DNA of 64,000 bases from Enchytraeus crypticus (lineage: Eukaryota > Annelida > Clitellata > Enchytraeida > Enchytraeidae). The position numbers and the translations under genes were made by a program. Position 1 is the stretch's first letter. Each line of letters starts with the position of its first letter. The notes below the pieces were generated by a model. That model saw nothing but the letters and a program-made list of their open reading frames with translations. It was not told the origin of the DNA and ran no database searches. Below, piece by piece: positions 14,999 through 63,500 of this stretch. The stretch is taken from the NCBI GenBank assembly GCA_905160935.1, contig CAJHZI010000885.1, positions 307,501-371,500 of the forward strand, in the 5' to 3' direction.

Positions 14999-17900
14999 AC
15001 TATAATTGACTATCACATTAGAATATCTAGAACCACTCACAGGAGGGGGGGCTGATCTGGGTGCACCCCCTGAATTATTCTTCTCCCCCTCAGCAACAGC
15101 AGAGAACAAGAAATTTCTCGACCCCCTCGCCGGTCCGTTAGGATTTGAAATGGGTTTAGACAGTTCGACTATTTTCGCTATCGACTCTTTGCTCCTCTGT
15201 AGGAATGAGCCGTGACCCAACCTCAGCTGCTGCTGCTGAAACACAGAGCACAACGAGATTAAGCACAATAAGTATTATTTTTATAAATCTGGCTATGGTA
15301 TGACACAATAAGAAGTGTAGGACAAAAAGCAAATAAGAGCAATAAATAATAAAAATAATATTAAACACATAAAATAGTAACAGGAATAGAAATATTAGTA
15401 CCGGCACTCTGAACAAGTCAGTTTTATCAGAGGTGACAGGAGGCGTAGCAATGGGCGTGGCTATTGGAGTGGCTTGATTTGAGTTCCTTCTCTCCAATGA
15501 CCTATTAGCACCCATTGTGTCCACTGTAACAACAAATCAATCAATCAATTAAATTAATTTTCTAATCAACTTGAATTTGAAATTGTTTGGAGGGGAGAGC
15601 TGGATGTTAAGCTAGAGAGAGGTAGACCATAATTGATGTGGGATGCGATAATTAAGAAGGACATGAAAAATAGGGCATTGACTTATTTTACTTAATAGGG
15701 CATATGGTGTGGGACAGGGAGGACTGGAGAAAGTCTATTCGTATCCCGACCCTGGTTAAAATGGGATTTAAGGGAAGATGATGATGATGTTAATCAAGTT
15801 GAGTAAATTTATTAATAAGCTATGAATATATAAGAGAAACAGTGAAGAGACAAAGAAGTGTCAGAACAGGAAAGTCACACAAGTCTTAATCATTCCAGTC
15901 GTAACTTCTGCTGCAGAAACAAGAACAAATAAGAAGAGAATATGATTAACGCTTTAGAACTGAAGTGTTGGAGCCTGCTATTAGACTTTTGTAGACTAAA
16001 AATGGTCAAATGACGCAAATACTGCAAGAAAAAGCTTCCTGACACAGTGTGCCGTTAAACGGGATGTTAAACCTTTCATTATTATTATTATTATTGTAAA
16101 GTCTAGATCCGAATAAATCACAAGGATTTAAGTGACTGATTTCTTCAAATTAATCCCATGAATCAACCGATACAGAAAAATGGTGGAAATTTCTTTACCC
16201 AACTTTAACAAAAATAATGATAAGGGTCATACGAGAGCTTTGTCTGAAGACTGTCTGACCAAGCCTCAGCAACTGACTGTCTGTCTGCTCTAATTCCTTC
16301 TCCTAAACAAAAGGCATATCAATCAACCTCAAGTATCTCTCAAGTACCTCAAGTCAGTCAATCAATCAAGTTGGAGTCAATCAACCAATGAATAACAAAC
16401 TCAATCAATTAATTCATTATAATTGTAACCATTATGTTGACTATTTCCTATACGCTGTATTATCTGTTGCACAGTATATATGAATATAGGTCTGCTATGC
16501 ATTAATTAAACAAGTAAAACAATAAAAAGAAGTTCAACGTGAAATTGTAAAAATACATGATAGAACCTTTTGTTCCTGTAGAAACTTTTCTCTCTCTAGC
16601 CGCTCCGTTCTCCATTTAGATTCGTTTTCACCATCATCATCTTCATTATCATCGCTGTCTGATCTGTTACGCTCTGAATCGTCATCCGCATCTGTCAATC
16701 AATCAATCAATTAATCAATCAATCAATCGATCAATCAATCATTGTAACTCTTGTTTTATCAATCAATCTATTTATTTATCCATCAAGCGTTCTATAAGTT
16801 AAAAATTCAACGAATACAATTAAATAACATTTAATCATCATCGTCATCATAATCCTCCCTTGAATCCCAGTTAAATTAGAGTCAGGATACAAATAGACTG
16901 TCTCAAATCCTCTCTGTCCTACATCATATCATTCATCAGTCAATCCCCTATTTGAGACTCTTCCGTTCATTTTAATTTTTGTAGCAATTTCTGGAGCCTA
17001 CGCGCTCACAAACCGAATGCCCTTTCTGACAAATAAAATCACCATCATCATCATCATCATCATCTTCCCTTGAATCCCAGTTTAACTAGGGTCGGGATAC
17101 GAATAGACTGTCTCAAATCCTCTATGTCCCACACCACACCACCATCCATTTATTTGTTTCTGACAAATAAAATAAATAATAATAACATCAAATAAAGATT
17201 AGTATAATAATAATAATATTTAATAAAAATTAATATAATATTTAATAGAAATGACTATTTTGCGAGTCAGCTGACCTATGTTACTCCATCTGAACCTCCT
17301 CATCCTGCCTCCCCCCTCAGCATGCAGGTCACCGTCAGGTAGGTAGTGTTCCTGTAGCAGTCGTATCTCTCTCTTATCAGCGTCTATCAGGGACTTCCTG
17401 TCAATCAATCAATCAATCAGTCTCTCAGCATGTAGATCACCGTCAGGCAGGTAGTGTTCCTGCAGCAGCCATATCTCTCTCTTATCAGCGTCTATCAGAG
17501 ACTTCCTGTCAATCAATCAATCAATCAATCAATCAGTCTCTCAGCATGCAGGTCACCGTCAAGTAGGTAGTGTTCCTGTAGCAGTCGTATCTCTCTCTTA
17601 TCAGCGTCTATCAGGGACTTCCTGTCAATCAATCAATCAATCAGTCTCTCAGCATGTAGATCACCGTCAGGCAGGTAGTGTTCCTGCAGCAGCCATATCT
17701 CTCTCTTATCAGCGCGTCTATCAGGGACTTCCTGTCAATCAATCAATCAATCAGTCTCTCAGCATGTAGATCACCGTCAGGCAGGTAGTGTTCCTGCAGC
17801 AGCCATATCTCTCTCTTATCAGCGTCTATCAGAGACTTCCTGTCAATCAATCAATCAATCAATCAAACAGTCAATTAATCAGTCTGTCGAGAAACCGTTA

Positions 17901-60500: not shown

Positions 60501-63500
60501 CTTTGCTCTATTTCCCTGAACATGGTGTCACTTTGTGCATTATATTGTGTACTTATTGTACTTATGCTACCATATTTTTGGTGAAATAAAGATGTATACA
60601 ATAAAAAGACAGATAGGAAGTATTGCCGATCTTTACTTACGAGTCAATCACAACCTTGTAATCTAGAATTCCTGACACGAATCTAGCGGCGTATCTGAAA
60701 GAGAAACAAAATCAACGATGATTCGATTTTATACCACACACATGCTTGACAGTAAAGCTTTAACTAACTAAGTTTTGTATGAAAAAATCATAGTTGATTA
60801 TATAGTATGTTTTCATTAACTTACTAGAAACTATTATTCATCAAAAATACGATATATCTTTCTAAATCTAAATTGTATCTGTTTAAATCTGAAGCACATC
60901 TGTCTAAATCATATCATATCTTTCTAAATTTAAATCGTATCTTTTAAATCTAAATTATATCTTTCTAAATCTAAATCACATCTTTCTATATCTAAATCAC
61001 ATCTTTCTAAATCTAAGTCACATCTTTCTAAATCTAAATCACATCTTTCTAAATCTAAATCACATCTTTCTAAATCTCAGAAGAACTCAGTTCCAATAGC
61101 TCTCATTTTTCTTAGGTGCGTTCCCCTGGTATGGGCCCTCATTGTTTAGTAGGAGAATGTGAATAGTGACCGCTTATTTAGCTCTCAAAACCCACTTTGA
61201 TAACTGATAGTACAGTAGTATATCCATTCTATTTAAAAAGATTCCAGTTGTGAATATTTCAATAGAAGTATCATTCCACTACTTCGAACGTTCAGTTTCA
61301 TGGTGAATTCTTTGGAGTCAGCTAGATAGTTTCAAAATACTTGAAATATTTGTTCAAGTTTCTATGTGGTCACAAAGTTGAATTCTCTCCTTTCTATGCA
61401 GTGACTTACACAACTCCGCCCACTTCTATGAAATGACTTAACTCCGCCCACTTCTATGCAGTGACTTACAAAACTCCGCCCACTTCTATGCGGCGACTTA
61501 AGATAACTCCGCCCACTCACCTCAGCTGTGCACTCTGATCCTCGAAGTGTTGACGAGGGAAGACCATTCCAGGGCTGGAGTTGATGGGCAGAGCCAGACG
61601 AACCTTCATGTACATGTCCTCCGACCAAAAGTCGTACACCTTTAACGAGCAAATACACACTGTTACCATCTCTCAGTGAGACTGACCAAATAAATCCAAA
61701 TTAATCTTTTAGTTAGGTAGATTGTGGTGTTTTAGTTTTAAGTTAAGATGCGCAAAACCTTTACTTCAAGACGACTCGACACACTCGAGCTACCGTCATA
61801 TGCATTACGTTAATGGCAAATTAAAAGACAGAACCAAAATCAGACTGCGATCGAGTGTATCGCTATTGAAATTCGAGTTTTCGTAATTAGTAACTAAGAT
61901 TTATATTAAAATGCTTTCTAATTTTTAAGGGTATTAAGTATATCTTTAATTTTTCTATGCATAGCATTGACTGATAGAAACACTAGTTTACAGTTATATT
62001 ATTTTATATTCCAGTAATTATTGACATTTATGTTGGGCTGTATTTTGAGAATATGGATCGCTATGCCTAGCATGAAGCTAATATATAAAATACAAAAATA
62101 CAAAAAAATATTAGCGTTCTCGACATAGGTAGTATTATATCAATGTATGGCTTGGTATCTAAACTTACATCAAATGTCAGTGACGGGCGAGCCCAAATGT
62201 GAACCTCGCACATACTAATCCGCGGTTGAATATCTTACCGACATCGCCATTGGCTCCATCCAGTACATAAGTCAGTATTTACGTACTTATTAGCACTGAC
62301 CAGAAAGTTGATTCGTCACAATAGCTAAGCCTTGCCAAACTTTACTTCAGCCTTAATCTTAGGAGGATAACTTCTGAGATGATTTGTCATTGCCTTACTG
62401 ACCTTCCTGCTTGGTTGTCTCTTACGACACGTTCAGTTTACGGCTCATCTATTCCAATTTAATTTAATTTAATTATATTATGCTGGTTTAGGAGGTCGCC
62501 GAGACCTGCAACACCAGTCTAAGATTCTGCAAAGTCTCGGGTTCAATAAGTGGGTTCGGAGCAGCAATAGACTGTACTATATAATAAAAAAATCAAGTTA
62601 TAATGTGATATTTTTACCTCATTTGTTACGCGTTTGCGTTTCTGTTATGTTCTGTACTCACTTTGATTGCCGGAGTGGCGTAATATATACAATATATATA
62701 TATATATATATATATATATATATATATATATATATATACATGTATATATATATAAACATATTTATATATATACATGCATATAAATATCACATAACAGAAA
62801 CGCAAACGCGTAACAAACGAGGTAAAAAATATCACATTATAACTTGATTTTTTATTAAATAGTACAGTCTATCAGAAGTTATTGCTGCTCCGAACCCACT
62901 TATTGAACCCGAGACTTTGCAGAATATATATATATATATATATATATATATATATATATATATATATATATATATATACATGTATATATACATGTATATA
63001 TATAAATATATACCTTAGTGCACTGCCTACAGGCAGGTCCATGGTATATAACGCCTCCACTCTTTTCTTTCTTCCGCTTTCCTCTTCATTTCCACATTTG
63101 CGTAGATCTTTAAATCATCTAACATACCTAATCTCGGCCTGCCCCTGCCTCTTTTCCACTCCATTCTACCTTCTATGACCTCTGTTAATAGACCTTCCCT
63201 TCTAAGAATGTGTCCTATCCAACTCTTCTTTCTATTTCTTAATGCCCAAGAAAAGAATGGTATATATATATATATACAAATCTCTACCCAGTTGTCTTTA
63301 GTCTGGGCATACTCCTCTAGATGTCTCTGGAGGGTCTCTCCCAGTCCATCAGGCTTCTGGAACTCTGCCACCAGTTCTTCTGTCCTCCTGTACTGATCAG
63401 GTGGAACAATAGGCTTGATGCACAGCAGGTATTTCTCCATCGTCTCCGTCAGAGTGGGTACAGGTAGCTTCGGTAGAGGCTTCTGAAGCATAGAAATATC

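Follow-up and report, generated by a model that had tools for sequence, protein, structure and literature searches.

Tandem arrays across exon edges, probable 'mirages', in genes of the annelid Enchytraeus crypticus

Minisatellites with units that span exon edges were analysed in a stretch of 64,000 nucleotides of the Enchytraeus crypticus genome (assembly GCA_905160935.1, contig CAJHZI010000885.1, positions 307,501 to 371,500 of the forward strand), the whole of which is called the window below. At eight splice junctions of the genes for Claspin, DIPK2 and CRAT, seven of them firm and one probable, as well as at the stop codon of CRAT, the exon edge was found in the terminal unit of an array when the tandem arrays were viewed unit by unit, as had been claimed in an earlier note on this DNA. 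The arrays are real, but they are not new in kind. Tandem duplications of exon-intron boundaries, which the note had taken to be apparently undescribed, have already been named 'mirages' in lancelets (PMC3087553, PMC3902484). On balance, we favour the reading that the arrays of E. crypticus are mirages, that is minisatellites derived from tandem duplication across an exon edge, and that tolerance of duplications which arose by chance explains most of them.

Exon-edge arrays in three genes of the window

Gene models were built by hand on the coding strands, and the exon numbers given here follow those models. CRAT (13 exons, minus strand) matched PF00755 in a Pfam search (E 1.4e-182), Claspin (27 exons, minus strand) matched the Claspin chain 7pfo_Q of the PDB (E 1.6e-08) and the DIPK2-like gene (4 exons, plus strand) matched PF12260 in a Pfam search, which is its profile support; the name DIPK2 follows the earlier note and is presumed here. 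The firm junctions are those of Claspin exons 9, 10 and 23, DIPK2 exon 3 and CRAT exons 8, 9 and 10, and the eight junctions comprise three donors and five acceptors, one of the acceptors being the probable case. Cutting the arrays into units confirmed that the units carry a piece of exon together with its AG, GT or stop, and that the extra copies identified are on the non-coding side, in the intron or in the flank.

The arrays of Claspin and CRAT all lie on the minus strand. In Claspin, the array at the exon 9 acceptor (29625-30323, boundary 29647/29648) is built of units of about 61 bp with 23 bp of exon each, and the array at the exon 10 donor (26757-27125, boundary 27108/27109) of 40-54-bp units with about 12 bp of exon and the GT; both were detected with Tandem Repeats Finder (TRF) and in the unit view, as was the array at the exon 23 acceptor (17316-17861, boundary 17397/17398). 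The units of the latter, 108-116 bp long, join about 82 bp of exon to a (GATT)n tract and ACAG, in that order, and the rest of the exon appears only after the final copy. At the exon 22 acceptor (18398-18656, boundary 18420/18421), TRF reported an array of 55-bp units which ends at the AG and in which the exon part has diverged; exon and unit align over 23 bp with a score matched by 2 of 5000 shuffles, an alignment by which this acceptor is probably junction-spanning as well.

The DIPK2 exon 3 acceptor (37860-38083, plus strand, boundary 38058/38059) carries an array of 38-bp units, about 25 bp of each being exon; TRF reported 37860-38049, and the exon edge was added by eye. In CRAT, the array at the exon 8 donor (54968-55727, boundary 55719/55720; TRF to 55710) has units of 38-48 bp which share just 6-8 bp of exon, making it the weakest of the firm junctions. 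The exon 9 donor array (54129-54353, boundary 54342/54343; TRF and unit view) consists of 34-bp units with 9-12 bp of exon. At the exon 10 acceptor (52930-53505, boundary 52984/52985) about 55 bp of exon recur three more times, with a (GATT)n tract after each copy, in a composite array that TRF did not report as one. The stop-codon array (51126-51521; TRF and unit view) extends into the 3' flank in 84-bp units, about 80 bp of each being coding sequence that includes the stop, which ends at 51439. One further array (61392-61517, minus strand), beside the CRAT exon 2 donor, begins at intron position +5 and was therefore ruled out as junction-spanning; it was not among the eight junctions of the earlier note.

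Some copies in the arrays have lost their AG or GT in the unit view, and 48 decoy sites which keep one were listed in the window arrays. Use of any of these 48 would bring a premature stop, in 47 cases within the retained array and in one case downstream, so that either splicing must pass over the decoys or what they produce must be removed. Each array may be regarded as a natural experiment in which near-identical splice sites stand in a row and one is presumably used. Retention of AG or GT in many copies, the premature stops and the finding that three of the five decoy donors at CRAT exon 9 read GTAAGT while the real donor reads GTAGGT could point to a regulatory role, in which the extra splice sites would influence which site is chosen or give rise to poison products. 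A human interferon-induced gene is reportedly known for a minisatellite with multiple splice donors. In human IFI6 (G1P3/6-16), two downstream repeat units are reported as used donors (PMC4526556). Premature stops are, however, expected in any intron, lancelet mirages are reported without disturbance of splicing (PMC3087553, PMC3902484) and the spread of the arrays over unrelated genes suggests no common function; a regulatory origin is accordingly given little chance.

Misassembly of reads is hardly to be expected as the source of the arrays. The assembly is a hybrid of Illumina and PacBio data (PMC8460440), and copy numbers may be wrong, but the units of most arrays differ in substitutions and in length, and the architecture recurs in unrelated contigs. 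The argument from unit divergence is weakened at Claspin exon 22 and at a malic enzyme gene described below, where units are near-identical.

Recurrence elsewhere in the genome

For recurrence outside the window, 524.2 Mb in 802 contigs were searched; the published assembly is given as 525.2 Mb in 910 scaffolds, and 35.4% GC is reported for E. crypticus (PMC8460440). As a replicate, ten carnitine acyltransferase loci were picked by homology to PF00755, not by their repeats, and were modelled with a spliced aligner. This aligner recovered each of the 12 CRAT introns in the window, but its query had been derived from them, which makes the check a weak one. Exons were kept if they overlapped PF00755 profile matches, which left 62 of the 167 predicted exons (105 were dropped) and 114 junctions. 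Straddling copies were found at 6 of these junctions, in five of the ten genes: at the acceptors of exon 13 in both C383 and C399 and at four donors, namely those of C576 exons 1 and 3 and, with one copy each, of C240 exon 5 and C420 exon 14. The tiny exon 2 of C576 sits inside the array and is a doubtful exon. Together with the window, 7 of 101 donors and 7 of 101 acceptors carry arrays, Claspin exon 22 being counted, or 14 of 202 junctions.

In addition, ten clusters of the pattern (TTGA)4CAGG, drawn from 100 of its 181 genomic sites, were read by translation and edge matching. Six of them were clear (L035, L036, L038, L039, L040 and L043), with the first 20 exon bases recurring 3-9 times upstream at 80% identity or more, and in two (L037 and L042) the repetition of the exon edge was weak. 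The remaining two, L041 and L044, have GATT acceptors, and edge matching found no exon-edge copy upstream of them. When the downstream peptides of all ten clusters were compared with Pfam, malic enzyme, OATP, ribosomal L7Ae/L30e and Integrator INT1 passed the cut-off, FAM221 and one coiled-coil match fell below it, and four peptides were without a match. In the malic enzyme gene (L035, C329:740900-743200), the exon edge recurs seven times upstream at a spacing of 74-76 bp, with a GATT acceptor.

The arrays of window and replicate bear on the proposal that the introns themselves are remnants of intron gain, having arisen by tandem duplication of exon segments bearing AG and GT. A model of this kind has been put forward for lancelet globins (PMC3087553), and a case is known from potato (PMC4974935); here, Claspin intron 8 is nearly all array and C576 intron 1 is wholly array, its next exon being the doubtful one. 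In the seven window introns concerned, 63-1144 nt nevertheless separate the array from the other boundary, and the arrays at the two ends of CRAT intron 9 are made of different units. Intron gain is considered very improbable as the origin of these arrays.

Preference of arrays for junctions

Tolerance of chance duplications has to be weighed against junction targeting, according to which splice sites, through co-transcriptional structure, R-loops or conflict with replication, start or expand duplications more than the rest of the intron does. Several counts favour targeting and speak against an account by tolerance. Under a null given by how often a randomly placed founding unit spans a junction, which was judged fairer than a comparison of coverage, 7 of 39 TRF arrays with hand-set units straddle a junction where 2.23 are expected (P=0.005); for units of at least 34 bp, a cut taken from the claim of the earlier note, the numbers are 7 of 12 against 1.41 (P=0.0001). 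Arrays were also called automatically, with the null conditioned on each intron, in 36 settings. In the 18 settings that require at least two extra copies, the pooled data of window and replicate gave more junction-spanning arrays than expected every time, with a ratio of 1.4 to 3.2 and P<0.05 in nine. Finally, a distance of at most 25 bp from a junction was found for 24 of 54 array ends where 7.6 or 11.2 are expected, a number reached in none of 200,000 simulations; exons acting as barriers could by themselves place array ends there.

Other results do not bear out a targeted process. Taken apart, the automatic arrays reached P<0.05 in 3 of 36 settings for the window and in none of 36 for the replicate. 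For the pooled data this was the case in 9 of 36 settings, all nine of them among those needing at least two extra copies; once two-copy repeats were counted, none of 18 settings reached it, straddling being close to a null of uniform seeding (P 0.05 to 0.91). The founding-unit test with at least 20 bp of exon in the unit gave 4 of 39 arrays (P=0.18), the expectation being too high for that cut. By coverage, at least two extra copies were counted for 5 of the 88 junction-centred 24-mers and at least one for 6 (one of the 88, at exon 3 of the RING-type gene, ends at a stop instead of a GT and is not a real donor), whereas random positions in the same introns gave means of 11.3 and 16.2, a comparison biased against junctions by the constraint on exon sequence and the inability of arrays to extend into it. 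With introns so full of arrays, an intron position is repeated more often than a junction; 17-23% of deep intron positions lie in repeats. The stop-codon array, moreover, involves no splice site.

A modest junction excess for arrays of several copies is therefore likely, and junction targeting is not established; we regard it as unlikely to be the main cause. For the active process which the earlier note had offered as a possibility, the seeding tests gave anything between no excess and about three-fold, and the coverage and the two-copy settings speak against it. Where the note had nearly all arrays with regular units of about 34 bp or more starting on a junction, the count made here gave 7 of 12.

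Tolerated duplication is the simplest account of these observations, and it is the permissive part of the note's interpretation that fits best. Slippage or unequal exchange would produce duplications anywhere in the gene, and those inside exons would be lost. Duplications across a boundary could survive in that the copy beside the exon would still serve as splice site or stop, and the remaining copies would fall into the intron or the 3' flank, where they could multiply. Use of the copy nearest the exon would agree with exon definition. The stop-codon array follows the same logic with no splicing involved, and donors and acceptors are affected about equally in the sample; both points count for tolerance. 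The introns sampled in E. crypticus are dense in tandem arrays of all kinds. At acceptors, a pre-existing (GATT)n at the intron end may help, as a tetranucleotide slips easily and could carry the adjoining exon edge along.

(GATT)n tracts at acceptors

Three or more copies of TTGAT were found in the last 60 nt before 17 of 101 acceptors (10 of 44 in the window, 7 of 57 in the replicate), and the antisense motif before none of the 101. At the donors of window and replicate, one of 101 had a sense tract and one of 101 an antisense tract. Of 16 introns with (GATT)3 or longer, 15 carry it in sense, and in 14 of these 15 the tract ends no more than 27 nt from the acceptor. This sense-only pattern is stronger than the junction excess, and it is a separate and easily tested one. 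Two of the acceptor arrays described above, at Claspin exon 23 and CRAT exon 10, contain such tracts; others were located on the minus strand in sense upstream of the CRAT exon 13 acceptor (51661-51785, (GATT)n-type), 4 nt from the CRAT exon 8 acceptor (55856-56194, (GATT)n-type), 6 nt from that of exon 6 (57048-57073), 5 nt from that of exon 5 (57504-57681, (GATT)n-type) and 3 nt from that of Claspin exon 24 (16695-16741), and on the plus strand 22 nt from the acceptor of the last exon of the RING-type gene (47737-47854, (GATT)n-type).

The polarity was followed in the rest of the genome with a coding-flank score that is positive at 63% of true exon starts and in 5% of intron windows. At (TTGA)4CAGG, a coding-like flank was present after the tract at 12 of 20 sites and before it at 2 of 20; with CGGA in place of CAGG, the figures were 3 of 20 and 2 of 20. 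Of 13 stretches with (TCAA)4CAGG, 12 could be scored, and coding-like sequence lay on the 3' side in 2 and on the opposite side, 3' of GATT, in 6. At 20 sites where the base after (GATT)5 is not G, a coding-like stretch after YAG was found 8 times in sense and 3 times on the opposite side; among random intron positions the rate was 6.4%. GATT polarity therefore holds beyond the first gene set, the (GATT)5 sample being small if taken alone. Genome-wide pattern counts (181 for (TTGA)4CAGG and 15 for (TCAA)4CAGG) were dropped as proof of a link between GATT and acceptors since CGGA shows a like asymmetry (77 and 3), and, as the asymmetry is not specific to CAGG, reliance was placed on the gene models and the flank tests. 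The excess of (TTGA)4CGGA over (TCAA)4CGGA is not explained by CAG acceptors.

Seeding of the exon-edge arrays by acceptor tracts, with slippage in (GATT)n dragging the exon edge along into composite arrays, is suggested by units of exon edge plus GATT tract at Claspin exon 23, CRAT exon 10 and six loci elsewhere, and by the sense-only occurrence of the tracts. The six loci outside the window were, however, picked by their GATT pattern, and arrays were present at 2 of 17 GATT acceptors as opposed to 5 of 84 others, numbers too few to differ. Nor is there GATT at the edge in most donor arrays, at Claspin exon 9, in DIPK2 or in the stop-codon array, so that the tracts could explain the arrays only in part; as the general cause they are quite improbable. 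Copies of the exon edge upstream of single GATT-CAGG sites did not discriminate (edge 7 of 20, interior 4 of 20; 10 of 20 and 6 of 20 in the CGGA control). Enrichment of TTGAT as a branch point at other acceptors was not seen (5 against 5.0 expected).

We tentatively raise a further possibility, in which we place limited confidence, namely that sense (GATT)n is a standard 3' splice-site element before YAG at about one in six of the sampled acceptors, where it would replace the pyrimidine tract and perhaps provide tandem branch points (UUGAU every 4 nt), its slippage seeding exon-edge arrays. Titles and abstract openings in the literature on tandem repeats, branch points and pyrimidine tracts described nothing like GATT tracts.

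Further features and limits of the gene models

Claspin exons 24 and 25 could not be joined in frame in the hand model (15402-16691), and an exon between them is probably missing. The RING-type gene (plus strand) was supported by Pfam search, and its exon 3 join is incomplete in the models, as is the exon 24-25 join of Claspin. At about 41200-41880 lies a reverse transcriptase fragment of the long interspersed nuclear element type (RVT_1, E 5.8e-28; peptide translated by eye). A single-exon open reading frame of 457 amino acids occupies 6012-7385 on the minus strand and is a candidate for a branching N-acetylglucosaminyltransferase. A dispersed element with a tRNA-like stretch was seen by eye on both strands at about 10250, 26625, 45655, 38660 and 48640 and looks like a short interspersed nuclear element.

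Outside the window, contig C802 is mitochondrial: COX1 was identified by profile, the other protein genes were named by eye from their translations and the tRNAs were found with ARAGORN, while the positions of ATP8, tRNA-Ser1 and the rRNAs were taken solely from gaps. Its gene order is presumably that of Lumbricus. The mitochondrial gene order of E. crypticus has been described as the Lumbricus order (PMC8460440).

Comparison with known systems

Several known systems resemble these arrays in part. Intron gain by tandem genomic duplication shares with them tandem copies of exon edges with splice signals, and differs in that nothing was found in the seven window introns concerned to derive both intron ends from one exon segment. 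The donors of human IFI6 are reported as used, whereas the decoys of E. crypticus are candidate sites. Among clitellate annelids, earthworm metallothionein genes likewise have large intron minisatellites, with duplications of exon 4 that are absent from the transcript in one clone; the passages on these genes describe no junction-spanning units (PMC12783039).

The closest counterparts are the mirages of lancelets, which have been reported in the Adh3, globin (BflGb6/BflGb9), troponin C and PGBD5 genes as tandem repeats of about 10-160 bp across 5' or 3' exon-intron boundaries, many of them with AG or GT; haplotypes differ in copy number, somatic instability occurs, splicing is undisturbed, and intron gain has been proposed (PMC3087553, PMC3902484). 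Literature searches that included annelids found mirages reported only in lancelets. As in lancelets, the units of E. crypticus span the exon edge, donors and acceptors are both affected and many copies keep AG or GT. In contrast to the reported lancelet cases, which are cephalochordate, E. crypticus is an annelid, and it has in addition a stop-codon array and a (GATT)n tract in the units at several acceptors. The species is kept as a laboratory animal, and a public genome and transcriptome are available for it (PMC8460440). That mirages also occur in a phylum far from the lancelets, at 14 of 202 sampled junctions, suggests that array-rich genomes generally give rise to them and that they are not an oddity of lancelets.

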